Below, piece by piece: positions 20,035-37,029 of a stretch of 37,722 nt of DNA. The DNA lies in the NCBI GenBank assembly GCA_902790475.1, contig CADASG010000024.1, positions 1 through 37,722 on the forward strand. The letters are read 5' to 3'. A program made the translations under genes and the position numbers. The notes below the pieces were generated by a model. It did no database searches. It was not told where the DNA came from and saw nothing but the letters and a program-made list of their open reading frames with translations. Each line of letters begins with the position of its first letter. Position 1 is the first letter of the stretch. Source of the stretch: an uncultured Ruminococcus sp. (GTDB lineage: Bacteria; Bacillota; Clostridia; Oscillospirales; Acutalibacteraceae).

Positions 20035-20047
20035 AGGGAGGCTTACC

Positions 20048-20707: not shown

Positions 20708-20720
20708 AGGGGACTAAACA

Positions 20721-21500
20721 ATGAAGGCAGTTATTCTCGCCGGCGGCTTCGGCACACGCATTTCTGAAGAATCACAGTACAAACCCAAGCCCATGATCGA
20801 AATAGGAGGTATGCCGATCCTTTGGCATATCATGAAGCAGTACTCGCACTACGGCATAAATGATTTCATCATCTGCGCCGGTTACCGTCAGCATACGATC
20901 AAGGAGTGGTTTGCCGACTATTTTCTGCACACCTCGGACATCACCTTTGATTTCACACGCGACGACAAGATCATCGTACACAACAAGCGCGCGGAGCAGT
21001 GGCGCGTCACCGTGATCGACACGGGACTCAAAACCATGACGGGCGGCAGGCTCAAGCGCATTAGACAATATTTGGACGAAGATATATTTTTCATGACCTA
21101 CGGCGACGGCGTGTCCGACATAAACATCGACGACCTGCTCATGTTCCACAAGTGCCACGGGAGACTTGCCACGATGTCGGCGGTCAAGCCCGAGAGCCGC
21201 TTCGGAACAATTGATTTTGAGCAAAACGGCAAGGTCAACGCTTTTCGCGAGAAAAACGAGGCGGACACAGGCTACATCAACGCAGGCTTTATGGTTCTCA
21301 ACAAAAAGGTGCTCGACTATGTAGAGGGCGACAGCATCATGTTTGAGCGTCAGCCTATGGAAAAGCTTGCTGCCGACGGCGAGCTGATGTGCTACCGTCA
21401 CAACGGCTTCTGGCAGTGCATGGACACCATGCGCGACAAAACCAAGCTGGAAGATTTATGGGAGAGCGGAGACGCTCCCTGGAAGGTATGGAAAGACTAA
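20721..21500 (+). CDS. rfbF: Glucose-1-phosphate cytidylyltransferase
   Basis: Makes CDP-glucose from CTP and glucose-1-phosphate, the first step to CDP-deoxysugars. 259 residues, family length 255-260. N-terminal nucleotide-binding motif LAGGFGTR (6-13) with KPKPMIEIGG, then YGDGVSDI (metal/substrate) and the RFGTIDF and ADTGYINAGFMV segments typical of RfbF. The start is preceded by GAGGGG. Its TAA overlaps the rfbG ATG (TAATG). Confidence 0.96.
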   Translation: MKAVILAGGFGTRISEESQYKPKPMIEIGGMPILWHIMKQYSHYGINDFIICAGYRQHTIKEWFADYFLHTSDITFDFTRDDKIIVHNKRAEQWRVTVIDTGLKTMTGGRLKRIRQYLDEDIFFMTYGDGVSDINIDDLLMFHKCHGRLATMSAVKPESRFGTIDFEQNGKVNAFREKNEADTGYINAGFMVLNKKVLDYVEGDSIMFERQPMEKLAADGELMCYRHNGFWQCMDTMRDKTKLEDLWESGDAPWKVWKD

Positions 21501-22555
21501 TGCAGAATTTTTATCAGGGAAAACGTGTATTTATCACAGGTCACACGGGCTTTAAGGGAAGCTGGCTGTGCAAGATCCTCACGGGCATGGGCGCTGAGGT
21601 AACGGGCTACTCGCTCGAGCCTCCGACCGAGCCTAACCTGTTCACGCTTGCGGATATCGGCAGCGAGATCAACTCCGTTATCGGCGATGTTCGCGATTAT
21701 GAGAATCTCAAAAAGGCGTTTGACGAAGCTAAGCCCGAGATCGTGCTTCACCTTGCGGCTCAGCCGCTGGTGCGCGAGAGCTATCAGAATCCCCTGCTGA
21801 CCTACGATACAAATGTGATGGGCACTGCGAACATCCTCGAGTGTATCCGTCAGAGCAAATGCGTAAGATCCTTTGTCAACGTTACCACCGACAAGGTGTA
21901 TGAAAATAAAGAGTGGGAGTGGGGCTACCGCGAAAACGAGCCTCTTGACGGCTTTGACCCCTATTCCAACTCCAAAAGCTGCAGCGAGCTGGTGACAGCC
22001 ACCTACAAGCGCTCCTTCTTCTCGGACGGACGCGTGGCGATCTCCACCGCGAGAGCAGGCAATGTTATCGGCGGCGGCGATTTTTCCGCTGACCGCATTA
22101 TCCCCGACTGTGTACGTGCGCTCGAAAAAGGCGAGGATATCATCGTTCGCAACCCGTACTCAACGCGTCCCTATCAGCACGTTATCGAGCCTCTGTACGC
22201 TTATCTGCTGATAGCAAAGGCTCAGTATGAAAACCCGGAGCTTTCAGGCAGCTACAACGTCGGACCCGACGAAGCGGACTGCGTTACCACGGGCAGACTG
22301 GTAGATCTGTTCGTCAAGCTGTCCGGCGACAAAATCAAGCGCGTGGACAAAGCGGAGAAGAACGCTGTTCATGAAGCCAATTTCTTAAAGCTGGACTGCT
22401 CCAAGCTGAAAGCGACGCTGGACTGGAAACCGCGCTGGCACGTTGCCGACGCCGTAGCGAAAACCGTTTTGTGGACGCTGGTATGGCTCGAAGGCGGAAG
22501 CGTCAGCCGCGCAATGGAACGCCAAATCGAAGAATTTTTTAGTTCGCGTACTTAA
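21500..22555 (+). CDS. rfbG: CDP-glucose 4,6-dehydratase
   Basis: Converts CDP-glucose to CDP-4-keto-6-deoxyglucose. 351 residues, extended SDR fold: NAD motif TGHTGFKG (13-20), active-site TTDK and YSNSK (Tyr-x3-Lys), and the family hallmark 'GNVIGGGDFSADRIIPD'. The start MQNFYQGKRV fits homologues; longer in-frame readings run antisense to nothing useful and overlap rfbF. The last residues, SSRT, and the stop codon are encoded by an intergenic repeat (TTTTTTAGTTCGCGTACTTAA), so the native end has apparently been replaced. Confidence 0.96.
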   Translation: MQNFYQGKRVFITGHTGFKGSWLCKILTGMGAEVTGYSLEPPTEPNLFTLADIGSEINSVIGDVRDYENLKKAFDEAKPEIVLHLAAQPLVRESYQNPLLTYDTNVMGTANILECIRQSKCVRSFVNVTTDKVYENKEWEWGYRENEPLDGFDPYSNSKSCSELVTATYKRSFFSDGRVAISTARAGNVIGGGDFSADRIIPDCVRALEKGEDIIVRNPYSTRPYQHVIEPLYAYLLIAKAQYENPELSGSYNVGPDEADCVTTGRLVDLFVKLSGDKIKRVDKAEKNAVHEANFLKLDCSKLKATLDWKPRWHVADAVAKTVLWTLVWLEGGSVSRAMERQIEEFFSSRT

Positions 22556-23130: not shown

Positions 23131-23173
23131 ATTAATTATAAAAAACGTCTGTAAAAAACGGAGTGAACGAATC

Positions 23174-24091
23174 ATGAATAACGTGATAATAACAGGCGCC
23201 AACGGCTTTGTAGGCTCAAATGTCTGCCGGCTGTTGTGCGAGAGCGGTACGCGTGTGACCGCCGTGATCAAAGATGAAAATGAAGATATCCAAAACATCA
23301 AAGCCCTGCCGAACCTCAGTGTGGTTTACTGTGACTTGTCGCAGCTTGACACTCTCGGGGACAAAATAAGCGACAGAGGTTTTGATGTTTTTTACCATTT
23401 TGCGTGGGTAGGAAGCGCCGGACCCCTTCGCTGCGACGAGGAAATGCAGCTTCAAAACGCCCTTTGGACAGCAAAAGCGCTGCGCACAGCGGACAGCCTC
23501 GGCTGCAAAAAATTTGTCAACGCAGGCTCCATCATGGAAAAAGAAACCTACACCGCCGTTTACACTCAGGACAGCACACCGGGGCTGCCCTATATTTACG
23601 GAGCCGGCAAGCTGGCTGCAAGAGCGATTTGCAAGCCCATTGCCAACAGCCTTGACATCGACCTCTGCTGGGCGGTGATCACCAACGCCTACGGAGTGGG
23701 CGAGCTTTCTCCGAGGTTTGTAAACACAACTATCCGCAAGATAATCGCAGGCGAGCCGCTGCAGTTCACCGCCGCGACCCAAAACTATGACTTTATTTAT
23801 ATTGACGACGTGGCAAGGGCGTTCGCCGCTATCGGCGAACACGGCAAGCCCAACCGCGAATACACCATCGGCAGCGGAAACGCGCGTCCGCTCAGGGAGT
23901 TTATCCTTGAGATGCAGCAGGCGCTCGCGCCCGACGCGGCTCCCATTTTCGGCGACGTTCCCTTTACCGGCGTAAACATGCCGCTCGAGGCGTTCGACAC
24001 CACGCCGATTCAGGAGGACTGCGGCTTTAAAACCACCGTGAGCTTTGCCGAGGGCACACGCCGCACAATGGAGTGGCTCAAGCAACTGTAA
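23174..24091 (+). CDS. NAD(P)-dependent SDR, probable CDP-4-keto-6-deoxysugar reductase/epimerase
   Basis: 305-residue extended short-chain dehydrogenase. Nucleotide motif TGANGFVG (7-14), active-site serine in NAGSIME (about 119), Y142-x3-K146 (YGAGK), and RFVNTTIRKIIAGEP followed by YDFIYIDDVARA as in nucleotide-sugar enzymes. With rfbF/rfbG upstream and an RmlC-like epimerase downstream, the likely role is the final 4-keto reduction of a CDP-6-deoxyhexose, as in the abequose/paratose synthase group; this is inferred from context. The ribosome site is GGAGTG, and transcription must cross the repeat island or start inside it. Confidence 0.82.
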   Translation: MNNVIITGANGFVGSNVCRLLCESGTRVTAVIKDENEDIQNIKALPNLSVVYCDLSQLDTLGDKISDRGFDVFYHFAWVGSAGPLRCDEEMQLQNALWTAKALRTADSLGCKKFVNAGSIMEKETYTAVYTQDSTPGLPYIYGAGKLAARAICKPIANSLDIDLCWAVITNAYGVGELSPRFVNTTIRKIIAGEPLQFTAATQNYDFIYIDDVARAFAAIGEHGKPNREYTIGSGNARPLREFILEMQQALAPDAAPIFGDVPFTGVNMPLEAFDTTPIQEDCGFKTTVSFAEGTRRTMEWLKQL

Positions 24092-24112
24092 TCATATTTG
24101 GGGAGGAACATA

Positions 24113-24688
24113 ATGGTATCACCGTTTGAATTTTGCAAGACAGATTTTGAGGGGGCTTATCTGATCAAGCCTTTTTGCGCCACGGACGTCCGCGGCGCGT
24201 TTATCAAGGACTATTCCAAAGAGGTCTTTGAGGCGCAGGGTATCCGCCACGACTTAGCCGAGGTGTTCTACACGGTATCGCACAAGGGCGTTATCCGTGC
24301 GCTGCACTTTCAGCGCGTACACGAGCAGGCAAAGCTGGTGCGCTGCGTCAAGGGAAAGGTGTACGACGTTATCGTAGATCTGCGTCCCGAGTCCCCCACC
24401 TTCAAGCACTGGCAGGGCTTTTATCTCACCGAGGAAAACCGAAACGAGCTGCTGGTACCCGAGCACTTCGCGCACGGCTATTTGGTGCTTGAGGACAGCA
24501 TCGTAAGCTATAAATGCGGCGAAAAATTCTACGGAGAATTCGACGACGGCATTATGTACAACGACCCCGATCTGGGCGTTGAATGGCCTATGGAGGAGAT
24601 TGGCGGCGAACAAAACCTGATTGTTGCCGACAAGGACAAAAATCTGCAAAGCTTTCAGGAATATAAGGAAAGATATTTAGACGTATGA
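24113..24688 (+). CDS. RmlC-like nucleotide-sugar 3,5-epimerase
   Basis: 191-residue cupin of the dTDP-4-dehydrorhamnose 3,5-epimerase family. Catalytic and binding residues are in place: R62-A-L-H65-F-Q67, D89 (VDLRPES), H118/H121 in EHFAHGYLVLED and Y133 (VSYKC). No rmlA, rmlB or rmlD is present here, so the substrate is probably the CDP-4-keto-6-deoxyglucose made by rfbG rather than a dTDP sugar (inference). The ATG at 24113 follows GGGGAGG; the frame is open a few codons upstream without a better site. Its stop overlaps the next ATG (ATGA). Confidence 0.85.
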   Translation: MVSPFEFCKTDFEGAYLIKPFCATDVRGAFIKDYSKEVFEAQGIRHDLAEVFYTVSHKGVIRALHFQRVHEQAKLVRCVKGKVYDVIVDLRPESPTFKHWQGFYLTEENRNELLVPEHFAHGYLVLEDSIVSYKCGEKFYGEFDDGIMYNDPDLGVEWPMEEIGGEQNLIVADKDKNLQSFQEYKERYLDV

Positions 24689-25671
24689 ACATCGTATATT
24701 CAAGCTCCGACAGCTACGCAGCCGTAGCAGGAGTGTCGCTGTACTCGCTCATGGTCAACAACAGCGACTGCGATGAGCTGCGTATCTTTATAATTGATAA
24801 CCACATCAGCGAAAAAAATAAGGAGAAGCTCACCTCTATGTGCCGTCAGTTCGGCAGGGACGTGACCTTTATCCCGATTGCCGATATCGAAAAGCTCGTC
24901 GGTACGTCGATCGACGTGGGAAGGTGGAACATCTCTACCTTTGCGCGGCTTTTTTACGGCAGCCTTCTCCCGAAAAGCGTTGACAAGGTGATCCACGTTG
25001 ACTGCGACACCATGGTTATGGATTCGCTAAAACCGCTTTGGGATATGGATCTTAGCGGAAAAGCCGTTGCGGGCGCTCTGGAGTGCATCGGCGACAGCTA
25101 CAAGACCGAGATCGGTATGCAAAAGGACGACATCTACCTCAACGCAGGCAACGTAATGCTCAACCTTGACTATATTCGTGAAAACGGGCTGGAAGAAAAA
25201 TTCAAGAAGTTTATCGCCGGGCGCGACCGTCTGTCCTTTATGGATCAGCCCGTGCTCAACGCCTGCACCACCAACGAAGAAAAGCTGGTGGTGGATTTGC
25301 GTTACAACCTCTACGCGCTCGTTTACTACCTGAAATATAAAAACGTGCTGAAGGCAAAGCGCGTTTCGCATTATTACACCGACAAGGAAGTGGCGCTGGC
25401 AAAGCGCAACCCCTGCATCGTACATTTCACCACCTGCTTTATGGACGGCACTCGCCCGTGGATAGAGGGCAACCGTCATCCGCTGGTTGACCGTTATCTG
25501 GAATACAGGGCGCAGACCCCGTGGGCTGACGAGCCGCTTTGGACGGATGACCGCAGCGCAGTCAAGAAGCTGGGCTACACCATGTTCAACAAGCTGCCGC
25601 AGGGCTTTGTGGCAGGCTCCATCGGCACTGTCCACGACAAGATAATCCCGATGAAAAATAAACTCAAATAG
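24685..25671 (+). CDS. Family 8 glycosyltransferase
   Basis: 328 residues, GT-A fold retaining glycosyltransferase of the LgtC/GspA type. N-terminal 'NIVYSSSDSYAAVAGVSLYSL', metal-binding D106-C-D108 in HVDCDTMVM, the DIYLNAGNVMLNLDYIRE segment and the C-terminal HFTT..RPW. It adds one sugar, often glucose or galactose in this family, to the lipid-linked repeat unit on the cytoplasmic side. Donor and acceptor are unknown. Overlaps the epimerase gene by four bases. Confidence 0.92.
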   Translation: MNIVYSSSDSYAAVAGVSLYSLMVNNSDCDELRIFIIDNHISEKNKEKLTSMCRQFGRDVTFIPIADIEKLVGTSIDVGRWNISTFARLFYGSLLPKSVDKVIHVDCDTMVMDSLKPLWDMDLSGKAVAGALECIGDSYKTEIGMQKDDIYLNAGNVMLNLDYIRENGLEEKFKKFIAGRDRLSFMDQPVLNACTTNEEKLVVDLRYNLYALVYYLKYKNVLKAKRVSHYYTDKEVALAKRNPCIVHFTTCFMDGTRPWIEGNRHPLVDRYLEYRAQTPWADEPLWTDDRSAVKKLGYTMFNKLPQGFVAGSIGTVHDKIIPMKNKLK

Positions 25672-25681
25672 GCGGTGCGCT

Positions 25682-26191
25682 ATGGGCGTAATGATTTTAA
25701 AACTGATGTTTCACATAAATGCCGCGTTAAAAAAATTCGGCTATAAGCTGATTTACGGCAAGCGGCTGCAATTCGGCAAAAAATCCACCTTTCGCCGCAG
25801 ATTCTATGTGTACATAGAGGGCGACGGAAGGGTGGATATCGGCGACGACTGCTTTTTCAACAACGGCGCGTCGCTCAACAGCCTGAGCAGTATAACCATC
25901 GGCGACCGCTGCGTGTTCGGCGAGGACGTCAAGATATATGACCACAACCACAAGTTCCGCGACCTCACACGCCCCGTAAAGGATCAGGGCTTTTCCTCAA
26001 AGCCCGTAGTGATCGGCAGCGACACATGGGTATGCAGCAACTGCGTGATCTTGCAGGGCGTCACCATCGGCAGCCACTGCGTTATAGGCGCAAACTGTCT
26101 GGTATACAAGGACGTACCCGACAACACCATAGTCACCAACGGCGCTCCCATGGTGATGAAGTCCATGAGTATGAACAAGGAAGATCAATAA
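25682..26191 (+). CDS. Left-handed beta-helix (hexapeptide repeat) O-acetyltransferase
   Basis: 169 residues. A short N-terminal amphipathic stretch (about 1-30) is followed by hexapeptide repeats from about 50 to 165 (IGDDCFF, ITIGDRCVFG, VVIGSDTWVCSNCVILQGVTIG, HCVIGANCLVYKDVPDNTIVTNGAPM). The loop DHNHKF carries the histidine that serves as general base in this family. It probably acetylates a sugar of the repeat unit. The first ATG is taken; an in-frame ATG at 25691 is also possible and the ribosome site (AGGCGG) is weak for both. Confidence 0.87.
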   Translation: MGVMILKLMFHINAALKKFGYKLIYGKRLQFGKKSTFRRRFYVYIEGDGRVDIGDDCFFNNGASLNSLSSITIGDRCVFGEDVKIYDHNHKFRDLTRPVKDQGFSSKPVVIGSDTWVCSNCVILQGVTIGSHCVIGANCLVYKDVPDNTIVTNGAPMVMKSMSMNKEDQ

Positions 26192-26192
26192 T

Positions 26193-27329
26193 ATGGAACC
26201 GATAAGAGTATTACAGGAAGACGTTATTATGGATATGGGCGGCATAGAAGTGCTGCTGATGAACCTTTACCGCCATATCGACCGCGAGGCGCTGCAATTC
26301 GACTTTATGATGCACCGCCCCGACCACGCTTTTTTTGAGGAGGAGATCGAGTCATTAGGCGGCAGGATCTACCGCACACCGCCGTTCAACCCCTTCAAGA
26401 TAGGCGCGTTCAAGAAGAGCATAACGGACATTCTGTCCTCTCACCCCGAATACAATATAATCCACTGTCACGCTGAGCTGAACCTTTGGCCGCTGAAATA
26501 CGCGCATGAGCTGGGCGTACCCGTGCGCATAGCGCACAGCCACAACGCAAAGACCACACTCAACCTAAAATACTTCTTTTTTTTATACGAGAAGATGTTT
26601 ATAAAAAACCACTGCACCGATATGTTCATGTGCTCTCCGCTCGCAGGCGAGTGGAGCTTCGGCAAAAAAGCGGTCGCAGAGGGCAAGGTACATATGCTGA
26701 AAAACGGCATTGTCACCGATGATTTCCGCTATAATGAAGCCGTCCGCCGCGAGGTCAGAGAAGAGCTCGGCTTGACCGACGAGATCGCTGTCGGTCACGT
26801 GGGACGCTTTATGAAGCAGAAGAATCACGCGTTTTTGATCGAAATATTCCGTGAGATACACCGCAAAAATCCAAAGACCGTTCTGTTTTTGACGGGCATG
26901 GGCGAGCTCGAGGACAGCATCCGCAGCCTTGTGTCCGAATACGGGCTCACTGACAGCGTGCGCTTTTTGGGCGTGCGCAACGATACCGTGAGACTGTATC
27001 AGGCGTTCGACCTGTTTTTGTTCCCCTCGCTGTGGGAGGGACTTCCCGTTACCGCCATCGAAGCGCAGACAGCCGGACTGCCTGTGCTCATGACCGACGT
27101 TATCGCCGACGAAACCGTAGTTACCGGCAACGTCACCAAGTTCAGCCTCACCCGAAACGCGGAGGAGTGGGCTGATAAAGCGCTGGATATTACAGGCGGC
27201 TTTGACCGACGCGATGTGTCGGATCAGGTGAAGAAGGCAGGCTTTGACATCATTGACACCGCGCAGCGGCTTCAGGCGTTCTATATCGACAGACACCAAA
27301 AAGCCGAACGCGAAAAGAAGAACCGCTGA
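26193..27329 (+). CDS. Family 4 (GT-B) glycosyltransferase
   Basis: 378 residues. N-terminal 'IRVLQEDVIMDMGGIEVLLMNLYRHID' with the glycine-rich acceptor loop, 'HCHAELNLWP', and the C-terminal donor site with the E-x7-E motif in 'LWEGLPVTAIEAQTAGLPVLMTD' (roughly residues 280-300). The 'HVGRFMKQKNHAFLIEIF' segment is the usual GT4 linker to the second Rossmann domain. It starts one base after the stop of the acetyltransferase gene, so it depends on coupled translation. Sugar specificity unknown. Confidence 0.92.
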   Translation: MEPIRVLQEDVIMDMGGIEVLLMNLYRHIDREALQFDFMMHRPDHAFFEEEIESLGGRIYRTPPFNPFKIGAFKKSITDILSSHPEYNIIHCHAELNLWPLKYAHELGVPVRIAHSHNAKTTLNLKYFFFLYEKMFIKNHCTDMFMCSPLAGEWSFGKKAVAEGKVHMLKNGIVTDDFRYNEAVRREVREELGLTDEIAVGHVGRFMKQKNHAFLIEIFREIHRKNPKTVLFLTGMGELEDSIRSLVSEYGLTDSVRFLGVRNDTVRLYQAFDLFLFPSLWEGLPVTAIEAQTAGLPVLMTDVIADETVVTGNVTKFSLTRNAEEWADKALDITGGFDRRDVSDQVKKAGFDIIDTAQRLQAFYIDRHQKAEREKKNR

Positions 27330-27342
27330 GAGGGAGGCTGTC

Positions 27343-28455
27343 ATGGATAAAAAAACCGTTGCCTATATTACGCGGCACCGCGTGACAAACTACGGCTCCG
27401 CGCTGCAAACCTACGCCACACACGCGGTTTTGGAGCGGCTGGGCTATGAAGCGGTGTGCATAGACTACATCCGCGAGGCTGAGCTTTCAAAAAACGTAGC
27501 CTCCACGCGCCTTTCGACCTCGCGCTGGAACGCGAATATCCTGACAAGGATAGTTTATCTTTTGACTCAGAAGCCGATAATGACGACCGCCGCCAAGCGC
27601 TTTGACAGCTATATCGGACGGCTCGTCAAAACGACCGAAAAAGAATATCACTCCGAGCAGGAGCTCAAGGACGACTTGCCTCCTGCCGACGTATATATGA
27701 CGGGCAGCGACCAGGTGTGGAACATCATTTCCGGCATCGGCGTCGATCCTGCCTACTTTCTCTCATTCGTCCCCGACGACAAAAAGAAGATCGCCTATGC
27801 CGCAAGCTTCGGCGGCGCTGAGGTGAATGATAAGGACAGACCGCTGATGGCAAAGCTGCTCAGCCGCTACCAAGCCATAACCGTCCGCGAAAAAAGCGGC
27901 GTGAAGCTTGTTGAGAGCATGGGCGCTCAGGCGCGTCAGGTGCTTGACCCCACTCTGCTTATCGAGCAGAAGGACTGGCTGCGCATCATCCCCGACCGCC
28001 CCTGCACCGAGCAGTATGTGTTGGTTTATCACCTGCACCCAAACAAGGAATTTGAGGCTTACGCCAAGGAATTCGCCAAGCGGCGCGGCATGAAGCTTAT
28101 CCGCATCCACCCGTTTTGGCACCACACCTTCAAGCCGGGCGAGTTTATCCACTGCCCTCCCCTCGAGGACTTTTTGTGGTATATCAAAAACGCTTTCTGT
28201 TTGCTGACCGACTCCTTCCACGGCACGGCGTTCGCGCTGGGGCTCAACACGCCGTTCACCGACGTGCTCCCCGACAAATACAGCGAGCGCATCGAAAGCC
28301 TGCTGGCTGTCACGGGACTGCAAAGCCGAATTTTAAAAAGCTACACCGACTTTGATTCGCCTGCGTTGCCGATAGATTTTGACAAGGTGAACGAGCGGCT
28401 CGCAAGCGAGCGCAAGGAGTCCCTTGACTGCTTAAAACATATGATTGAGGATTGA
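27343..28455 (+). CDS. Polysaccharide pyruvyl transferase family protein (copy 1)
   Basis: 370 residues, PF04230-type GT-B-like fold. Motifs: NYGSALQTYA (16-25), GSDQVWN (121-127), SFHGTAFAL (291-299). Proven members put a pyruvate ketal from phosphoenolpyruvate on a sugar; many members in capsule loci are untested. The ATG at 27343 follows GAGGGAGG; the frame is open upstream into the GT4 gene but lacks a site there. A ferredoxin/FrhB-type gene starts 2 bp past its stop, so the two are closely coupled. Two more family members lie downstream and share only the motifs above. Confidence 0.88.
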   Translation: MDKKTVAYITRHRVTNYGSALQTYATHAVLERLGYEAVCIDYIREAELSKNVASTRLSTSRWNANILTRIVYLLTQKPIMTTAAKRFDSYIGRLVKTTEKEYHSEQELKDDLPPADVYMTGSDQVWNIISGIGVDPAYFLSFVPDDKKKIAYAASFGGAEVNDKDRPLMAKLLSRYQAITVREKSGVKLVESMGAQARQVLDPTLLIEQKDWLRIIPDRPCTEQYVLVYHLHPNKEFEAYAKEFAKRRGMKLIRIHPFWHHTFKPGEFIHCPPLEDFLWYIKNAFCLLTDSFHGTAFALGLNTPFTDVLPDKYSERIESLLAVTGLQSRILKSYTDFDSPALPIDFDKVNERLASERKESLDCLKHMIED

Positions 28456-28457
28456 AT

Positions 28458-29627
28458 ATGAACAATATTTCGGCATTGGGCAAAAAATGCTGCGGCTGCG
28501 CCGCGTGCGAACAGGTTTGCCCCAAGCATTGTATTCAGATGAAGCCCGACGAGGAAGGCTTTTTATATCCTGTAATAGATACCGAAAGCTGCGTTGACTG
28601 CGGCGTGTGCGTCAAGCGCTGCCCTGTTTTGTCCCTGAAGCCTGCGGGCAACACCCCAAAGGTGTTCTCCGTCAAGTCAAAGGACACCGAGATGCTGCAA
28701 AAATGCACCTCCGGCGGCGTTTTTCCGCTGCTTGCGCTTCAAACGATACGCAGCGGCGGCACCGTGTTCGGCTGCGCCTATGACAAATCGCTGCGCGCGC
28801 GTCACACCGCGGCGCGTACCGAATCAGAGCTTGAAGCTATGTTCGGCTCCAAGTACGTGCAGAGCGACACCCGCGGCGTTTATACCGAGGTCAAAGACGA
28901 ACTGCAAAAGGGCGTGCCCGTGCTGTTCAGCGGCACAAGCTGTCAGGTCGCAGGTCTTGTAAGCTTTTTGGGCAGAGACTACGACAATTTGCTGACCGTT
29001 GACGTGCTTTGTCACGGCGTACCTTCGCCGCTGCTGTTCAAAAGACACATGGAGTACCTCGGCAAAAAGCTCGGCGGCGAAGTGAAAAACTTCACCTTCC
29101 GCTGCAAGGATAAGGGCTGGGGCGTGTTCTACAGGGTCGAGACCGCCGACATAAAAAAGGTCGAGCACTCGCATTTTGACCCGTATTTCAGCGCGTTTGT
29201 CGAGGGCAAGACCGTCAGGGAAAGCTGCTACAGCTGCGTTTGCGCGACGCCTGACCGCCACGCCGACATAACTCTCGCCGACTTCTGGGGCATAGACGAT
29301 ATAGACCCGAAGTTCTTTGACAAAAACGGCGTATCGCTGGTGCTTGTCAACACCACCAAGGGCGATAAGGCGATGAACGGACTCAGCTCCGATATAATAT
29401 CTAAACCGCAGAAATTTGAGGACGCGGTAAAGAAAAACAGCAATCTGATAAAGCCCACCAAGCGCCCTGCGTGCCGCGATACCATCTATCAGGGCATGGA
29501 CGGCAACTATGAGGAATATGTGAAAACAAAGCTGAAAATCAAATCGGTTTTGAAAAAGAGAATAAAAATGCTGGTGTCCTTTGACACTAAACGCAAGATA
29601 AAACAACTGATCAAACACAGAGGATAA
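28458..29627 (+). CDS. Ferredoxin-domain FrhB-like (coenzyme F420 hydrogenase beta-type) flavo-Fe-S protein (copy 1)
   Basis: 389 residues. The N-terminal ferredoxin has two [4Fe-4S] motifs: C11-x2-C14-x2-C17-x3-C21-P and C45-x2-C48-x2-C51-x3-C55-P. The FrhB/FdhB domain follows with C83-TSGG, FSGTSCQV (C162), CHGVPS (C185) and ESCYSC (C257, C260) before ADITLADFWG, all usual for the family. F420 is not expected in Clostridia, so the partner is probably ferredoxin with bound flavin (inference). It could reduce or oxidise a sugar or lipid-linked intermediate; the reaction is unknown. The ATG at 28458 has GAGG at 8 bp. Confidence 0.88.
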   Translation: MNNISALGKKCCGCAACEQVCPKHCIQMKPDEEGFLYPVIDTESCVDCGVCVKRCPVLSLKPAGNTPKVFSVKSKDTEMLQKCTSGGVFPLLALQTIRSGGTVFGCAYDKSLRARHTAARTESELEAMFGSKYVQSDTRGVYTEVKDELQKGVPVLFSGTSCQVAGLVSFLGRDYDNLLTVDVLCHGVPSPLLFKRHMEYLGKKLGGEVKNFTFRCKDKGWGVFYRVETADIKKVEHSHFDPYFSAFVEGKTVRESCYSCVCATPDRHADITLADFWGIDDIDPKFFDKNGVSLVLVNTTKGDKAMNGLSSDIISKPQKFEDAVKKNSNLIKPTKRPACRDTIYQGMDGNYEEYVKTKLKIKSVLKKRIKMLVSFDTKRKIKQLIKHRG

Positions 29628-29640
29628 TAAAGGAAACGAT

Positions 29641-30822
29641 ATGGGAAACGATATGAAAAAGATAGGCTTATGCTGCTGCTACAAGCAGCGCAACTACGGC
29701 AGTCAGCTTCAAAGCTACGCCACGACCGTTGAAATGCGCAACCGAAACATCAACTGCGAGGTGATCGTACACACCAAAAAATGGGATCTTGATTATATGA
29801 AGGTCGCCAAGGTGTGGACATTCCCGTTCAACAAGGTGCTGCTCAGCGAGCGCCGCTCACGCTACAAAAAGCGCTTTCTGCTGCTCTTTCACAAGGACGT
29901 CAAGGCGCAGAACGACAAGCGCAACGCCAAGCTTGCCGAATTCTCCAAAAAGCGCTTCACCAATCTTTCCAGACCCGTTGTCGGCTACAGGGAGCTTCAA
30001 AAGCTCGCTGCCGAATACAGCGGCGTATTTGTAGGCTCCGACCAGCTTTGGAGCCCCGGCGGTATCACGGGCAACTTCCACAACCTGATGTTTGTGCCCG
30101 ACGACGTTCACAAGTTCTCTTACTCCACCAGCTTCGGCGTGTCTCAGCTCCCGAAGGACAAGCGCGAGCTTTACCGCACCTTTTTGAACCGTCTTGATTA
30201 CATCAGCGTGCGCGAAAACGCGGGCGCGGAAATCGTGAAGGACGTGTGCGGAAGAACAGCCGAGGTGGTCGCCGACCCCGTTATGCTGCTCACTACCGAG
30301 CAGTGGGAAGAGGAGATACCCTTTGTCAGACAATATGACGAGCCCTATATTTTCGCTTATTTCTTGGGTAAGGACGACACCGGACGCAGACAGGCAGAAA
30401 AGCTTAGAGAGCAGACCGGACTGAAGATCGTCACCGTTCACCACATGGATTCCTACAACAAGGTAGACGTCGGCTTCGGCGATTACGCACCCTACGAGGT
30501 GGGACCCGAGGAGTTCATCAACCTTATCCGCGGCGCGGAATACGTGCTCACCGATTCCTTCCACGGCTCGCTTTTGTCGCTTATGCATCACAAAAAGATG
30601 ATGATATTCAGCCGCTACGCTCAGGGCAGCTCGACCTCAAAGAACTCGCGTATCGACAGCCTGTGCGAAAACCTCGGAGTGCCCGACCGCAAGTATAACG
30701 GCAGCAACTTTGACAACATCACGCAGACGCCGGATTACGATATGGTGGACGAGCGTATGCAAGCCATCCGCGACCGCTCCAAGCGGTTTCTTGACAAGGC
30801 GCTGGCTTTTTATTTTGAATGA
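29641..30822 (+). CDS. Polysaccharide pyruvyl transferase family protein (copy 2)
   Basis: 393 residues, same family: RNYGSQLQSYA (17-27), GSDQLW (132-137), DSFHGSLLSL (about 305-314). It is rich in basic residues between 70 and 110. Two possible starts, at 29641 and 29653, each sit behind a GGAAACGAT site, because a 12-bp unit GGAAACGATATG is perfectly duplicated (29632-29643, 29644-29655). Placed straight after an FrhB-like gene, as for copy 1. Donor and acceptor unknown. Confidence 0.86.
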   Translation: MGNDMKKIGLCCCYKQRNYGSQLQSYATTVEMRNRNINCEVIVHTKKWDLDYMKVAKVWTFPFNKVLLSERRSRYKKRFLLLFHKDVKAQNDKRNAKLAEFSKKRFTNLSRPVVGYRELQKLAAEYSGVFVGSDQLWSPGGITGNFHNLMFVPDDVHKFSYSTSFGVSQLPKDKRELYRTFLNRLDYISVRENAGAEIVKDVCGRTAEVVADPVMLLTTEQWEEEIPFVRQYDEPYIFAYFLGKDDTGRRQAEKLREQTGLKIVTVHHMDSYNKVDVGFGDYAPYEVGPEEFINLIRGAEYVLTDSFHGSLLSLMHHKKMMIFSRYAQGSSTSKNSRIDSLCENLGVPDRKYNGSNFDNITQTPDYDMVDERMQAIRDRSKRFLDKALAFYFE

Positions 30823-30840
30823 TCCTTTTTGGAGGAACAC

Positions 30841-31842
30841 ATGGAACGACCTTTAGTTTCGGTGATTGTACCCGTATACAACGCCGCAGATTATCTTAAA
30901 ACCACGGTGGAGGGGCTTTGCAGCCAAACCTACCGCAATTTGGAGATACTGCTAATCAACGACGGCTCCACCGACAACAGCCCGAAGGTGTGCCGTGAGC
31001 TGGCGGATGCCGACAGCCGCGTTCGAGTGATCGACCGCGAGAACGGCGGAGTTTCAGCCGCGCGCAACAGCGGACTTGAAGCCGCAAGCGGCGAGCTTAT
31101 CGCCTTCTGCGACAGTGACGATTACCCCTGCCCCACCATGATCGAGCACCTTGTGAACATCATGGACGAATACGGCAGCGACGCCGTACACCAGCGCTTC
31201 ATCATGCAGCAGGAGGACAAAACCGACTTTACCGTGCCTGCCGAAACGGGCGAAGTAAACGTGAGGGACACCGGGGAGAGCGTGAAGTGGCTGCTCACCA
31301 AAAAAGAGCCCTACGGCAACGCGGTGTGGGCTAACCTTCTGAAAAGATCGGTGACTGAGGGCGTTACCTTTCCGCTCGGCGTAGCGGTCGGAGAGGACAA
31401 GTTCTTTGTGCTCAAAGCTTATATGAACTGTAAAAACGTCGCGTTCTATGAGGGCAGGGAATATATCTACGTGGTGCGCTGCAACTCGATCGTTCACGAT
31501 ACCTTCAGCGAAAAGCACCTTTCCTCTATCAACAACGCCAACGAGATACTGGCGCTGATAGAAAGGGAGCATCCCGAGTATACCGAATACGCGGTCGTAA
31601 ACAAATATAAAAACTACCTTTCCAATATCAGCCACATTCGCCGCTTTGATAGATCAAATCCCGTTATGGCGGAGGCTTACAAAGAGATAATCACCTTTTT
31701 AAAGGGTAAAAAACCCGACTATATCTACGGTTACCTTTCCAAAAACAGAGCTTTTGAGCTGAGACTGATCAGCTTCAGCGTTCCGCTGTACAGGCTTTAC
31801 ACGCTGATAAAATCGCTCGCCGCAGGCATTTTGAAACGGTAG
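30841..31842 (+). CDS. Family 2 glycosyltransferase
   Basis: 333 residues. GT-A inverting glycosyltransferase: 'VSVIVPVYNAADYLKTTVEGLCSQTY' (6-31), NDGSTDNS (40-47), 'ENGGVSAARNSGL' (67-79), and the metal-binding D91-S-D93-D94. The ATG at 30841 follows GGAGG at 6 bp; a TTG at 30829 overlaps the site. The C-terminal 80 residues include a hydrophobic/basic amphipathic segment that may touch the membrane. Adds a sugar to the repeat unit; identity unknown. Confidence 0.93.
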   Translation: MERPLVSVIVPVYNAADYLKTTVEGLCSQTYRNLEILLINDGSTDNSPKVCRELADADSRVRVIDRENGGVSAARNSGLEAASGELIAFCDSDDYPCPTMIEHLVNIMDEYGSDAVHQRFIMQQEDKTDFTVPAETGEVNVRDTGESVKWLLTKKEPYGNAVWANLLKRSVTEGVTFPLGVAVGEDKFFVLKAYMNCKNVAFYEGREYIYVVRCNSIVHDTFSEKHLSSINNANEILALIEREHPEYTEYAVVNKYKNYLSNISHIRRFDRSNPVMAEAYKEIITFLKGKKPDYIYGYLSKNRAFELRLISFSVPLYRLYTLIKSLAAGILKR

Positions 31843-31862
31843 CGTACCGACGGAGGAATCAC

Positions 31863-33239
31863 ATGTCTCAATATGCTGCCCTTGCGCGGAGCAGGGGCTA
31901 CGGCGAAAAAACCGGGCGCGTTATAAAGCTAAAGGATATTCTCAACTTTATTTCAATGATGATTTTTGCCGCCGTTATTTTCAGCGGCACCACCAAGATC
32001 GCGCCGCTAAAAAAGGAGCTGCTTGTGGTAGGCGGAATGGTCTGTCTGGTCTCCTTTTTTATCACTAACCAAAAAATCCGAATAATGAACGTAACAGCGG
32101 TCATATGGCTGTATGTGATAATGTATATGCTTGCAAGCTCCATGCTGAACAGCAATATGAGCAAGACGATAATCTACGTTTTGATGTATATGGCGTCCTT
32201 TATCGTTATGGTCACGGGCTTTTCCAAAAAGGACTACCTGATGTTCATAAAGATATGCGAGATATTCGCCGCGGTTTTCTGCGCGACTGTCCTGCTCGAG
32301 TTTTTTATCCGTCCGCTGTTTACAAACTATCTTATATTTTTGATGGACACCCCCTCGCGCGCCGCGAGTATCCGCTCCGAAATGAAAATCGGTATTTTCT
32401 CGGGGCTGAGCGGCGAAAAGGGCGAGGCTTCCTATGCCGCAAATATTCTGATCTCCATACAGCTCTGTCAGATATTCGTGCGGAGAAAGGCGAGCAAAAA
32501 GAACATCGCGCTGCTGCTTCTCGCCGTGTTCTCACTGCTGATGTCGGGAAAGCGCACCATGCTTATGATGCCGCTTGTGATAACGCTGGCGTTCTTTTTC
32601 GTCAACAAGATCAAGGGCAGGGTCTTTAAGCTGATTGCCGCTGCGGTCATCGTCGGCATCAGCGTATATATCCTCACCATGATATTCCCGCCCCTCGCTA
32701 TCACAATCGACCGTATCTTCAACTCGTCCTCGGACGATATGCTGACGGGCAGAGGCGACCTGTGGAACGTGTGCAAAAACATGTTCGTTTCAAATCCGCT
32801 GTTCGGCAGAGGCTTCGCCTCCTTCAACACCTTCGCAAACCGCGACTACAACGTAAACGTCATGATGGCGATACAGAACCACGAAAAATGGCTCTTTCAC
32901 GCTCACAGCCTGTATTATCAGTTTTTGGGCGAGCTGGGACTGTTCGGCTCCATCCCCGCGTTTTCCGTTATCCTGTATTCGTGTATCGGCGTTCTCAGGC
33001 TCAGAAAGAACATGGATCAGATGAGCGGCGGCGAAAAGATCATTTATCATTTTTCGCTTTATTATCAGCTTTGGTTTATTATATACGGCTTTACCAGCAA
33101 CGTCGGATACTATCCGCAGGACTTGATAATGTATTTCCTGTGCGTGAGCATGTATCTGTATTTAAAGCACCGCTTTAAGCCGATGCGCAAACCCGTACCC
33201 GACGAAATCAATACGATACAACAAGAGGAATATGTATGA
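31863..33239 (+). CDS. wzy: Polysaccharide polymerase (Wzy/O-antigen ligase-like)
   Basis: 458-residue polytopic membrane protein with about ten to twelve helices and a large outer loop near residues 280-350. This loop carries the family pattern 'GRGDLW......SNPLFGRGFASF' and 'HAHSLYYQFLGELGLFG', as in O-antigen ligase/Wzy proteins. It joins flipped repeat units at the outer membrane face. It overlaps the next gene by four bases (ATGA). The sequence outside that loop is diverged, as is normal for Wzy. Confidence 0.87.
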   Translation: MSQYAALARSRGYGEKTGRVIKLKDILNFISMMIFAAVIFSGTTKIAPLKKELLVVGGMVCLVSFFITNQKIRIMNVTAVIWLYVIMYMLASSMLNSNMSKTIIYVLMYMASFIVMVTGFSKKDYLMFIKICEIFAAVFCATVLLEFFIRPLFTNYLIFLMDTPSRAASIRSEMKIGIFSGLSGEKGEASYAANILISIQLCQIFVRRKASKKNIALLLLAVFSLLMSGKRTMLMMPLVITLAFFFVNKIKGRVFKLIAAAVIVGISVYILTMIFPPLAITIDRIFNSSSDDMLTGRGDLWNVCKNMFVSNPLFGRGFASFNTFANRDYNVNVMMAIQNHEKWLFHAHSLYYQFLGELGLFGSIPAFSVILYSCIGVLRLRKNMDQMSGGEKIIYHFSLYYQLWFIIYGFTSNVGYYPQDLIMYFLCVSMYLYLKHRFKPMRKPVPDEINTIQQEEYV

Positions 33240-34315
33240 GAATAGGAATAGTTACCTTTCAGCGCGCGCTCAACCACGGCGCGTCGCTTCAGATGTACGG
33301 ACTTTACCGCACCCTTAAAAAAATGGGACACGACGTCAAGGTGATCGACTACATCTCCGATCATCAGAGCAAGGCTACGCTCAAAAAGAAGATAGCCGAC
33401 ACGCTCAACGTCGCCCACGACCGCCGCAAGGCTGAGCAGTACCGTAAATTCCGCGAGGAATTTTTAGGCGCGGATATCACCGAGCCGCTCGCGCCCGATC
33501 AGCTCGGCGTGCTCAACGACCGCTTCGACCTCTTTATCGCGGGCAGCGACCAGATCTGGAACAATCATATCGGTTTTTTTGAGCCGTTCTACTTTTTGTG
33601 CTTCGTAAACGACGACAGAAAGAAGTACAGCTACGCGGTCAGCTTCAACCTCAAGGGCGTGCCCGAGAGCAAGGAAGCCGCCTACACCGAGCGGCTGTCC
33701 TCGTTTATGCGTTTTTCGGTCAGAGAGCCCGACGGCGTAGAGGCTGTCAAAAAGCTCACAGGCCGCGACGCGGAGATTCACATCGACCCCTCGCTGCTGC
33801 TCAACACCGACGAATGGCTCAGCTGTATCAAGGGCGTCGAGGTTCCTTCGACAGATAAATATATAGTTATATACACGGTCGGCAAGCCCGTGGCGCTGGT
33901 GGAAAAAGCCAAGGAGCTCGCGAAGAAAAAGGGGCTCAAGCTGTTTTACATGAGCGATTTTTACGGTCATCTCGACGTTAAACACCTGCGCGGCAGAGGT
34001 CCGCTGGAGTTTTTGGCGGCAATCGCCAACGCGGAGTATGTGTTCACAAACTCCTTCCACGGCACTGCATTTTCAATCAATTTCCACCGCCCGTTCTTTA
34101 CGGAGTGTCAGACTCAGAACCGCTACAACTTCCGTTCCGAGTCGCTGATGAGAAAATGCGGATTATTTGACCGCGATCTGTCAAACAATCCCGACGCGCT
34201 CGCGCTCGCTGACAAGCCCGTTGACTGGGAGCGCGCGGAAGCTTCTCTGAACGAGGAGCGCCGCCGTTCAGCCGAATATTTTGAATCTATTGTATCAGAG
34301 GTATCCAGTAAATAA
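33236..34315 (+). CDS. Polysaccharide pyruvyl transferase family protein (copy 3)
   Basis: 359 residues. Motifs NHGASLQMYG (13-22), GSDQIWN (103-109) and NSFHGTAFSI (272-281). The N-terminal motif is NHGAS rather than NYGS, and spacing differs from copies 1 and 2, so it is a separate subtype. It sits between wzy and wzx, with overlapping starts and stops on both sides (ATGA, TAATG). It could act on the repeat unit before export; donor, acceptor and even the pyruvyl activity are untested. Confidence 0.87.
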   Translation: MRIGIVTFQRALNHGASLQMYGLYRTLKKMGHDVKVIDYISDHQSKATLKKKIADTLNVAHDRRKAEQYRKFREEFLGADITEPLAPDQLGVLNDRFDLFIAGSDQIWNNHIGFFEPFYFLCFVNDDRKKYSYAVSFNLKGVPESKEAAYTERLSSFMRFSVREPDGVEAVKKLTGRDAEIHIDPSLLLNTDEWLSCIKGVEVPSTDKYIVIYTVGKPVALVEKAKELAKKKGLKLFYMSDFYGHLDVKHLRGRGPLEFLAAIANAEYVFTNSFHGTAFSINFHRPFFTECQTQNRYNFRSESLMRKCGLFDRDLSNNPDALALADKPVDWERAEASLNEERRRSAEYFESIVSEVSSK

Positions 34316-35889
34316 TGTCTAACGAAAAACAACAGGAGAATCTAACGCTGAAAAGCGGAGGAAGCCGTACAAAAAAATTCATGCACAACTCGATATCCAC
34401 CGCCGTCTATCAGGTCATTTTGATGATTTCGGGCTTTATCACTCCCAAAATCATGCTCGACTGCTACGGCAGTGAGGTCAACGGATTGGTGTCGTCCATC
34501 CAGCAGTTCATGACGCACTTTCAGATCGTTGAAGCAGGTATCTCGGGCGCGGCTATCTTCGCTCTTTATCTGCCTTTGGCACAGCAGGATCACAAGCGGA
34601 TCAACGCCATCGTATCCGCTTCGAGAAAGTTTTATTTTCAGTCAGGTTATATTTTTGTCGGTCTGGTAGTCGCCCTTTCCATAGGCTACATGTTTTTGGT
34701 GCCGACGCCGGAGCTCGCTCCGTGGCTGGTCGCGCTGCTCGTGCTCTCTCTGGGCGGCAAGGGCTTTATGGACTTTTTCACGCTCGCGAAATACCGCGTG
34801 CTGCTGTCCGCCGACCAGCGAACCTATATGATCTCGATCGCTTCGTCGGTGTACATCATCCTGAACACCCTGTTCATCGTCATTTTCTCCTACATGAAGA
34901 TGAATGTAGTGCTGGTGTACGCACTTTCGATCGTCTCCATGTACGTCCGTTCGCTTATCCTGAAGATCTACGTCAAAAGACATTACAAATACATCAATTA
35001 TCACGAGACTCCCGATTCCACAGCGCTGAACAAACGCTGGGACGTGCTGTATCAGCAGATTTTGGCGACCGTTCAAAAAAGTGCGCCCACTATCTTGGCG
35101 ACAATGCTGACGCCGCTCAAGCAGGTATCGGTATACGCCATCTACAACATGGTGCTCGTCGGTATCAACGACGTGCTTGGCATCTTTACAACGGGTCTTG
35201 TTTCATCTTTCGGCGACGTTATCGCCCGCGGACAGATAAAAACGCTGCAAAAATCGTATTCGGAGTTTTCGTTAGTCTACTATTCCCTGATAACGATAGC
35301 ATATCCCGTCACGGCGGTTATGATCGTACCCTTTGTTATAGTCTACACCAAGGGCGTACACGATGTGAACTATAACGTGCCGATCATCGGTTTCCTGTTC
35401 GCGCTCAACGGCTTGCTCTACAACATGAAAACGCCGCAGGCTATGCTGACGTTTTCCGCAGGTCTGTACAAGGAAACGCGCGTTCAGGCAAGTATCCAGG
35501 GCTTGATCATCATTATCGGCGGTTTGATTTTCGGTTACTTCTGGGGACTCATCGGAATTCTTATCGCTTCCTGTCTCTCCAACCTCTACCGCGTGATCGA
35601 CCTGATGATTTTTGTTCCAAAGCATGTTACCAAAATGCCAATTCGTATCACGGTGTTCAGCTACACGAGGATGATCATCAACTGCATGATCATCATGCTG
35701 CCGTTCACCTTATTTATTGATCTTGAGAAACTGACCCCCAACTTCTTTATGTGGGCAGTTTGGGCGCTGATCGTTACGGTTTACGCCGCGGTCATTGTGC
35801 TTGCGTCCGACTTCCTGTTTGAGAGAGAAGTATTTTGGGACGTTATGAAGCGCGTTAAAAAAATGATCCCCGGCAAAAAACACGCGTAA
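34315..35889 (+). CDS. wzx: Repeat-unit flippase Wzx (MOP superfamily)
   Basis: 524-residue membrane protein with about 14 hydrophobic helices. It starts with a cytoplasmic stretch rich in polar residues and then 'YQVILMISGFITPKIMLDCYGSEVNGLVSSIQQF', typical of the polysaccharide biosynthesis/flippase family. It moves the lipid-linked unit across the membrane. Together with the polymerase and the CpsC/CpsD pair it defines a Wzx/Wzy-dependent pathway. Confidence 0.9.
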   Translation: MSNEKQQENLTLKSGGSRTKKFMHNSISTAVYQVILMISGFITPKIMLDCYGSEVNGLVSSIQQFMTHFQIVEAGISGAAIFALYLPLAQQDHKRINAIVSASRKFYFQSGYIFVGLVVALSIGYMFLVPTPELAPWLVALLVLSLGGKGFMDFFTLAKYRVLLSADQRTYMISIASSVYIILNTLFIVIFSYMKMNVVLVYALSIVSMYVRSLILKIYVKRHYKYINYHETPDSTALNKRWDVLYQQILATVQKSAPTILATMLTPLKQVSVYAIYNMVLVGINDVLGIFTTGLVSSFGDVIARGQIKTLQKSYSEFSLVYYSLITIAYPVTAVMIVPFVIVYTKGVHDVNYNVPIIGFLFALNGLLYNMKTPQAMLTFSAGLYKETRVQASIQGLIIIIGGLIFGYFWGLIGILIASCLSNLYRVIDLMIFVPKHVTKMPIRITVFSYTRMIINCMIIMLPFTLFIDLEKLTPNFFMWAVWALIVTVYAAVIVLASDFLFEREVFWDVMKRVKKMIPGKKHA

Positions 35890-35907
35890 GCGAGAGGAGA
35901 ATAAACG

Positions 35908-37029
35908 ATGGAGCTGTTTGTAAGGCAATCTGAATGCTGCGGCTGCGAGGCTTGCAAAAACATCTGTCCCGTAAACGCGATACAGATGAAAAACGACGCC
36001 AAGGGCTTTGCCTATCCCGAGATAGACGAAGATAAATGCATCTCCTGCGGCGCGTGCCAAAGAGTCTGTCCGCTGAAAGGCGAGGCGCAAAAGCCATCGG
36101 CGCAAAAGACCTACGCTGTGAAGCATAAAAACAGCGGTGAAAGAAAGAGCTGCTCCTCGGGCGGTGCGTTCATCGAAATGGCGCGGCACATCATAAAGAA
36201 AGGCGGCGTCGTATACGGCGCGGCTTACGGAGAGAACTTTCAGGTCAGCCACATCCGCGCGGCTGACAAAGCGGAGCTGGAGCGGCTGAAAACCTCAAAA
36301 TACCTTCAAAGCCGCATCGGGGACGTCTACAGCCAGGTCAAGGCTGACTTGAACAGCGGTCTGCCTGTGCTGTTTTCAGGCACAGGATGTCAGGTTCAGG
36401 GACTGCGCTCCTTTTTAGGCAAGGACTATCCTCAGCTTTACTGCGTGGACATCGTATGCCACGGCGTACCCAGTCAAAAGCTGTTTGACGATTACATCAA
36501 ATATCTGGAAGAAAAATACAAGAGCAAGGCGGTAAGCGTCAACTTCCGCGGCAAGCAGGTCAAAAACGTGGTGCAGGATATGCTCGTCACCTTTGAAAAC
36601 GGCAAATCATACAGCTGCGCCGCGACCTTTGACAGCTATTACATGTTTTTTATCAAAAACTTTTCGCTCCGCGAGTCCTGCTACGAGTGTCACTTTTCCA
36701 ACAGCGAGCGCTGCGGAGATATCAGTCTGGCGGATTTCTGGAAGCTCGAAAAGCAGTTCCCGGAGTTTCAGGATTTCAAGGGCGTTTCGCTGGTCATCAC
36801 CAACAACGACAAGGGCGAAAAGCTCTTTGGCGAACTGAAGGACAAATACGAGATCATCGAGACACCAAAGGAGCTCGCGTTCGCTCAGCATCCCCTGAGA
36901 AAGCCCTTCGCCAAGCCCCAAAAAAGCGATTTGTTCTGGAACACCTACCTCACCCAAGGGTACAAGGCGTGCGTTAAAAAATACAACTCCTTCCCCAAAC
37001 TAAAAAACTTCATCCGCAAACATTTTTAG
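35908..37029 (+). CDS. Ferredoxin-domain FrhB-like flavo-Fe-S protein (copy 2)
   Basis: 373 residues, paralogous to the product at 28458. Two [4Fe-4S] motifs: C10-x2-C13-x2-C16-x3-C20-P and C44-x2-C47-x2-C50-x3-C54-P. FrhB landmarks: C82-SSGG, FSGTGCQV (C161), CHGVPS (C184), ESCYEC (C258, C261) before GDISLADFW. Every cysteine of the landmarks is kept, so it should be active. It follows the flippase by 18 bp with AGAGGAG upstream. Its stop TAG lies in the first bases (TTTTTAG) of an intergenic repeat. Last gene of the locus. Confidence 0.88.
   Translation: MELFVRQSECCGCEACKNICPVNAIQMKNDAKGFAYPEIDEDKCISCGACQRVCPLKGEAQKPSAQKTYAVKHKNSGERKSCSSGGAFIEMARHIIKKGGVVYGAAYGENFQVSHIRAADKAELERLKTSKYLQSRIGDVYSQVKADLNSGLPVLFSGTGCQVQGLRSFLGKDYPQLYCVDIVCHGVPSQKLFDDYIKYLEEKYKSKAVSVNFRGKQVKNVVQDMLVTFENGKSYSCAATFDSYYMFFIKNFSLRESCYECHFSNSERCGDISLADFWKLEKQFPEFQDFKGVSLVITNNDKGEKLFGELKDKYEIIETPKELAFAQHPLRKPFAKPQKSDLFWNTYLTQGYKACVKKYNSFPKLKNFIRKHF

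Follow-up and report, generated by a model that had tools for sequence, protein, structure and literature searches.

A PF04230 and ferredoxin-FrhB gene pairing in a Ruminococcus polysaccharide locus and its predicted role in the formation of lactyl ethers

In the MurA/MurB pathway an enolpyruvyl ether, which is the product of MurA itself, is reduced by a flavoprotein to the lactyl ether of muramic acid; MurA has the fold of 5-enolpyruvylshikimate-3-phosphate synthase, and MurB is a flavoprotein dependent on NADPH that, like BciB, acts on a C=C bond. The ketal pyruvyltransferases CsaB, WcaK and Pvg1p belong to the Pfam family PF04230, and FrhB, HCAR and the F420-dependent sulfite reductase share the domains PF04422 and PF04432. 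Here we describe a Wzx/Wzy-type polysaccharide locus of an uncultured Ruminococcus sp. (assembly GCA_902790475.1, contig CADASG010000024.1; the whole contig of 37,722 bases was analysed and is called the window below), in which three PF04230 proteins are interleaved with two ferredoxin-FrhB proteins. We propose that each PF04230/FrhB set probably converts a sugar hydroxyl in the lipid-linked repeat unit to a lactyl (1-carboxyethyl) ether, with an enolpyruvyl ether as the intermediate. The predicted logic is that of MurA and MurB, but it would be carried out by a PF04230 protein of GT-B fold and a ferredoxin-FrhB protein, in a host that has its own MurB too; neither MurA nor MurB is represented in the Pfam matches, or in the best 25 NCBIfam matches each, of the five PF04230 and FrhB proteins.

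The interleaved arrangement had been predicted from the DNA sequence and is borne out by Pfam matches over the curated cut-offs. Against the 25.3 bits that define PF04230 membership, PF04230-1 (27343..28455), PF04230-2 (29653..30822, alternative start 29641) and PF04230-3 (33236..34315) reach 126.7, 125.1 and 112 bits. FrhB-1 (28458..29627), with its two [4Fe-4S] ferredoxin motifs, and FrhB-2 (35908..37029) both carry Fer4 domains over the cut-offs, together with FrhB_FdhB_N (26.3 and 22.2 bits, cut-off 22) and FrhB_FdhB_C (72.6 and 74.8 bits). All genes lie on the + strand and follow a GT4-like glycosyltransferase gene in the order PF04230-1, FrhB-1, PF04230-2, glycosyltransferase family 2 (GT2), Wzy, PF04230-3, flippase-like protein, FrhB-2. 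The overlaps or few-base gaps noticed originally hold in the coordinates of the open reading frames (ORFs): PF04230-1 ends at 28455 and FrhB-1 starts at 28452 (TTG) or 28458 (ATG); PF04230-2 follows FrhB-1 after 13 or 25 bases, depending on its start; PF04230-3 overlaps the end of Wzy by 4 bases and the flippase-like gene by 1 base, and the latter is separated from FrhB-2 by 18 bases. At E <= 0.001 this locus accounts for every match to PF04230 (three) and to PF04432 (two) in the genome, which is 94% complete.

Both FrhB proteins share domains, fold and cysteine arrangement with the FrhB/HCAR/F420-dependent sulfite reductase family. An alignment of 34 FrhB proteins agrees with the original prediction that both copies keep the eight ferredoxin cysteines and the conserved FrhB cysteines, the latter being represented by four further invariant residues (C162, C185, C257 and C260 in FrhB-1 numbering). 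The modelled fold matches solved FrhB-like structures, among them HCAR, which reduces an organic substrate. The window proteins differ from this family in having PF04230 proteins as partners and in that CofD (TIGR01819) gave no match at E <= 0.001 in the 94% complete genome; F420 made by the host is therefore an unlikely cofactor. A role like that in methanogen hydrogenases was considered and rejected on the genome-wide matches, the missing CofD match and the pairing with PF04230.

The PF04230 proteins of the FrhB-linked kind have PEP (phosphoenolpyruvate) as their predicted donor and conserve an Arg and a His, as do CsaB, WcaK and Pvg1p, yet they part from the CsaB type in motif, model score and phylogeny. 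The PEP-site residues reported for CsaB, R306-x-H308 (PMC10435577), lie in MRLH in the CsaB-type controls and in TRLH in WcaK. The three window proteins instead read DSFHG, DSFHG and NSFHG, with the His kept and the Arg replaced by Ser, and the RLH motif occurs in none of the 96 FrhB-linked PF04230 proteins scored in stretches of related genomes. The CsaB equivalog model TIGR03609 (cut-off 213.1) is passed by eight of nine RLH-type controls scanned, the exception being L149 with 186.2, but it gives the window proteins 23.0 bits, 32.4 bits and no match. In a tree the 26 RLH-type proteins make up one side of a branch with a support of 99, and the FrhB-linked ones fall on the other side, so that the earlier statement that PF04230 enzymes ketalise sugars is not supported for them. 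A search of PDB sequences with the PF04230 profile returned chance-level rows only, and Pvg1p was not among the best 50 matches listed in fold searches, which has no bearing either way. Nearest to PF04230-2 on the tree are the radical-SAM-linked proteins of stretches L142 and L144; its partner may be FrhB-1 or an enzyme encoded beyond the contig, whose end limits the view of the 3' end of the locus.

A survey of further genomes places the association of the two families above chance. In a sample of 247 genomes of the order, searched for PF04432 and PF04230, these families occurred in 78 and 173 genomes, respectively, and PF04230 (in counts that include CsaB) was carried by 77 of the 78 genomes with PF04432 as against 96 of the 169 without it (Fisher p 5e-14). 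Around the FrhB places of 76 related genomes 91 stretches were taken, neighbouring places sharing one stretch and the window's own place and five places under the cut-off being left out, and scoring of their ORFs with home-made FrhB and PF04230 profiles found 98 FrhB ORFs in 90 of the stretches. PF04230 is fused to 36 of these ORFs (21 PF04230-first, 15 FrhB-first), lies unfused within 300 bases of 26 (25 within 60) and stands at 441-2470 bases in 16 spaced pairs. Ten spaced pairs have gaps of 1449-1641 bases, and in 11 a gene homologous to the flippase-like gene of the window intervenes, which gives the gene order of the window. In total, 78 of the 98 FrhB ORFs are fused to PF04230 or have it within 2.5 kb on the same strand; for random placement, assuming about two PF04230 genes per genome of 2.3 Mb, the expectation is well under 0.01. 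Moreover, over 82 pairs the distances among FrhB proteins are correlated with those among their PF04230 partners (r 0.48; at most 0.16 in permutations) and nearest neighbours are concordant in 21 of the 82 where about one is expected, both values including the effect of shared ancestry.

The functional link that had been proposed is thus supported by fusions and by linkage, and the occurrence of GT2-FrhB-PF04230 and GT2-GT2-PF04230-FrhB fusions indicates that the pair belongs with glycosyl transfer. In a second sample of 299 genomes of the phylum, 20 wider stretches were chosen among the lower-scoring PF04432 places; 19 contain an FrhB protein over 150 bits with the home-made profile (the exception is L233). 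Of these, 16 carry a PF04230 partner, which is fused in two and lies within 2 kb in the other 14. Plasmids carry the pair as well. Plasmid pNP95 of Pseudobutyrivibrio xylanivorans has both arrangements of the window, PF04230-FrhB (with PF04230 annotated as two pieces) and PF04230-membrane protein-FrhB, pRUMAL02 of Ruminococcus albus 7 has PF04230 (two pieces)-flippase-FrhB plus a separate 4Fe-4S gene, and FrhB-PF04230 is found on two Bacteroides finegoldii plasmids. Fusions of great length include a PF04230-FrhB-hexapeptide-SDR-SDR fusion of 1992 amino acids (L118:5692-11667; SDR, short-chain dehydrogenase/reductase) and a GT2-GT2-PF04230-FrhB fusion of 1641 amino acids (L120:3533-8455).

Several enterobacteria have lactyl ethers in their surface polysaccharides (PMC10609480), and the Klebsiella K22, K37 and K66 loci, compared here from the literature, combine lactyl capsules with pyruvyltransferase genes and no reported pyruvate. 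As given in PMC4616057, 46 capsule types are without reported pyruvate, and K8, K22, K37 and K66 among them carry pyruvyltransferase genes. By column count in Table 1 of PMC6856556, O-lac sugars occur only in K22 and K37 (beta-D-GlcA) and in K66 (beta-D-Glc), and pyruvate is listed for K8; the group is called 'O-lactose' in the text of that paper and O-lactyl in PMC11048683, and, according to the title of a reference in PMC3857182, K22 contains 4-O-[(S)-1-carboxyethyl]-D-glucuronic acid. The chance that all three lactyl types fall among the four of 46 is 2.6e-4. Among 1515 Klebsiella cps genes, PMC4616057 counts one coenzyme F420 hydrogenase and two nitroreductases. Because K22 and K37 have their cps genes in common apart from one frameshift (PMC3857182), one reductase per lactyl type fits an assignment of the F420-type gene to K66 and of the nitroreductases to K22 and K37, where a nitroreductase would probably stand in place of FrhB. 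The single F420 hydrogenase gene reported from a Klebsiella capsule locus (PMC4616057) also speaks against the original suggestion that the modification is specific to anaerobes.

It had been suggested that FrhB feeds ferredoxin electrons into the reduction of a sugar, a pyruvyl group or a lipid-linked unit. Among these targets a pyruvyl-derived group is probably the right one, and the reaction can be narrowed to what is most likely the conversion of an enolpyruvyl ether to a lactyl ether. PF04230-1, as a predicted enolpyruvyl transferase, and its counterparts would transfer the enolpyruvyl group from PEP to one sugar hydroxyl, and the product would stay an enol ether, R-O-C(=CH2)-COO-, with no closure to a ketal by a second hydroxyl. 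The FrhB proteins, as predicted enol-ether reductases, would then take up single low-potential electrons through the ferredoxin domain and a third [4Fe-4S] cluster, pass them to a flavin and reduce the C=C bond to give R-O-CH(CH3)-COO-, all before the lipid-linked repeat unit is flipped. Both reactions, as well as the flavin content, the stereochemistry and the acceptor sugar, are what we infer from gene content and comparison. The presence of two sets (27343-30822 and 33236-37029) suggests two lactyl-modified positions or sugars. In one stretch (L217:6458-8892) murA is followed at about 70 bases by an FrhB gene that has no PF04230 partner; a replacement of MurB by FrhB was considered for this single case and rejected, since the genome keeps murB elsewhere.

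A number of observations weigh against lactyl ether formation or its generality. The FrhB structure model is weak (mean predicted local distance difference test score 65.6). Four of the 98 FrhB ORFs have PF04230 only beyond 2.5 kb and 16, in 15 stretches, have none; nine of the 11 such stretches viewed by eye are unlike sugar loci, but L052 and L127 are sugar-like. In the phylum sample L217, L221 and L223 are without PF04230, and so, within 1.5 kb, are the 17 best PF04432 loci (L187-L203). The latter score 105-132 bits to PF04432 and 32-117 bits with the home-made FrhB profile and, given this low score and the lack of PF04230 nearby, look like another FrhB subgroup; by these sequences the PF04432 family apparently has other uses in the phylum. 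As to Klebsiella, the assignment of reductases to capsule types derives from gene numbers and not from the loci, and blastn searches with an FrhB gene of the window and with two FrhB-PF04230 pairs from Bacteroidales returned no match that would have led to a Klebsiella or Escherichia coli lactyl locus. Finally, an Arg stands two residues before the His (RTHA and similar) in 15 of the 96 scored FrhB-linked PF04230 proteins and at that motif position in three more of the phylum sample.

This Arg would suit a reading in which PF04230 makes an ordinary pyruvate ketal and FrhB has a task of its own, such as deoxygenation or keto reduction of a sugar nucleotide or of a lipid-linked sugar, with decoration of the same repeat unit as the only link. 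In its favour are the naming of the family for pyruvyl transfer, ketal formation by those members that have been studied (PMC6801904) and invariant residues that correspond to the His and to an Arg (H293 and R182), and the CDP-sugar genes of the locus could supply a substrate for FrhB. We nevertheless regard this as unlikely, as an intermediate common to both proteins is indicated by their 36 direct fusions, which occur in both orders, the FrhB-linked proteins form a separate subfamily, and the K22, K37 and K66 capsules are lactyl rather than pyruvyl. Somewhat less probable still is a direct reduction by FrhB of the finished ketal or of an oxocarbenium ion bound to PF04230, which would yield the lactyl ether without a free enol ether. 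It predicts the same end product and gene pairing, and fusion would favour a bound intermediate; then again, a C=C bond is the target of both MurB and BciB and would be required in the acceptor of the MenD-like partners of PF04230 described below. A flippase-like gene separates PF04230 from FrhB in 11 of the 16 spaced pairs and likewise on pNP95, on pRUMAL02 and in the window, which might be read as a sign that FrhB assists, as a redox protein, the polyprenyl carrier or some other step at the membrane and does not act on the pyruvyl group. Fusions or distances of up to 300 bases in 62 of 98 cases as compared to 16 spaced ones make this very improbable. Both families are accessory genes of sugar loci and might meet by chance in a gene-rich variable locus; this is hardly conceivable in view of the fusions, the shared strand, the co-varying distances and the second genome sample, and was rejected on the fusion and proximity counts.

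An unsaturated product of PF04230 is also favoured by PF04230 proteins that have other partners. Nine SFH-type PF04230 proteins have no FrhB nearby. Four of them are near a MenD-like thiamine enzyme (L140, L143, L145 and L147), and an SDR accompanies it in L143 and L147 (assigned by Pfam) and in L140 (assigned by likeness) but was not seen in L145; two adjoin a radical SAM/SPASM protein (L142 and L144), and the genomes of the remaining three (L151, L152 and L154) carry FrhB elsewhere. MenD (SEPHCHC synthase) adds to an unsaturated carboxylate. Its homologues here sit in sugar loci, often with an SDR, and are absent from the window; at a cut-off of 244.2 bits for the MenD model L143 passes (280.8), and L140 (185.2) and L145 (156.6) stay below. 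At E <= 1e-30 the 247 genomes contain ten MenD-like genes in nine genomes. PF04230 is fused to three of them, lies within 1.5 kb of five (the match in L184 being weak) and within 2 kb of the other two, so that all ten are linked; five of the ten served as search seeds, and a fused or adjacent PF04230 is present in every one of the remaining five. All linked PF04230 proteins except that of L184 were placed on the tree, and these nine lie outside the RLH side; the tree contains nine switches between FrhB and thiamine-enzyme partners, four of them forced by starred branches.

Such switches fit a hub role of the DSFHG-type PF04230 proteins, and it is quite possible, if somewhat less likely than not, that these make enolpyruvyl sugar ethers whose fate is set by exchangeable second enzymes. 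Ferredoxin-FrhB would lead to lactyl ethers, as would a nitroreductase in Klebsiella K22 and K37; a MenD-like enzyme would extend the CH2= end by a pyruvate-derived two-carbon unit, and reduction of the ketone by an SDR would then give 2-ethers of 2,4-dihydroxypentanoic acid; a radical SAM enzyme may yield a further product. Such 2-ethers of 2,4-dihydroxypentanoic acid occur in Providencia alcalifaciens O31 (PMC10609480), and by analogy the MenD-like enzyme with PF04230 and, where present, the SDR is a candidate pathway to them. L103, which combines PF04230-TPP, SDR and FrhB, is left unexplained by the simple model in which PF04230 and FrhB form a lactyl ether. MenD-like enzymes near or fused to PF04230 in polysaccharide loci, often with an SDR, are found in L143, L145, L147, L140, L103 and L182-L186, and radical SAM/SPASM proteins directly next to PF04230 at L142:6254-8581, L144:5113-7397 and L041:9675-11938.

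In the open literature searched we found neither enzymes for lactyl ethers nor an assignment of the PF04230-FrhB pair to them, which may already be in print. Butyrivibrio fibrisolvens is said to make an exopolysaccharide with 4-O-(1-carboxyethyl) sugars. If our proposal is true, two large families gain a shared reaction, lactyl sugars become predictable from sequence, which would aid capsule typing, and the chemistry of muramic acid arose a second time from other folds.

The remainder of the locus, likewise on the + strand and assigned by Pfam except where stated, is of the kind expected for Wzx/Wzy-type synthesis. A first block (18578..22555) comprises Wzz (from 18578, where the locus begins), a capsule kinase-like ATPase (from 19294), a sugar-phosphate transferase of the Bac_transf family (from 20042), glucose-1-phosphate cytidylyltransferase (from 20721; TIGR02623, 399.9 bits) and CDP-glucose 4,6-dehydratase (from 21506; TIGR02622, 453 bits), and a second block (23174..27329) an epimerase-family sugar enzyme (from 23174), an RmlC-type 3,5-epimerase (from 24098; TIGR01221), GT8 (from 24685), a hexapeptide acyltransferase (from 25682) and the GT4-like glycosyltransferase (from 26193), the three TIGR models being matched over their cut-offs. 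The cytidylyltransferase, 4,6-dehydratase, epimerase-family and RmlC-type genes (20721-24685) suggest an unusual cytidine diphosphate (CDP)-6-deoxyhexose. Between the two PF04230/FrhB sets lie GT2 (30829..31842; PF00535, 130.2 bits) and a Wzy-type polymerase/ligase (31863..33239; PF04932, 63.3 bits). The flippase-like membrane protein between PF04230-3 and FrhB-2 (34315..35889), which has no Pfam match at 0.001, is taken as Wzx from its likeness to its positional counterparts in P. xylanivorans and R. albus 7, with which it shares 28-29% identity in an alignment of about 400 residues. On pNP95 the PF04230 gene that corresponds in position to PF04230-3 shows 31% identity to it in the aligned part.

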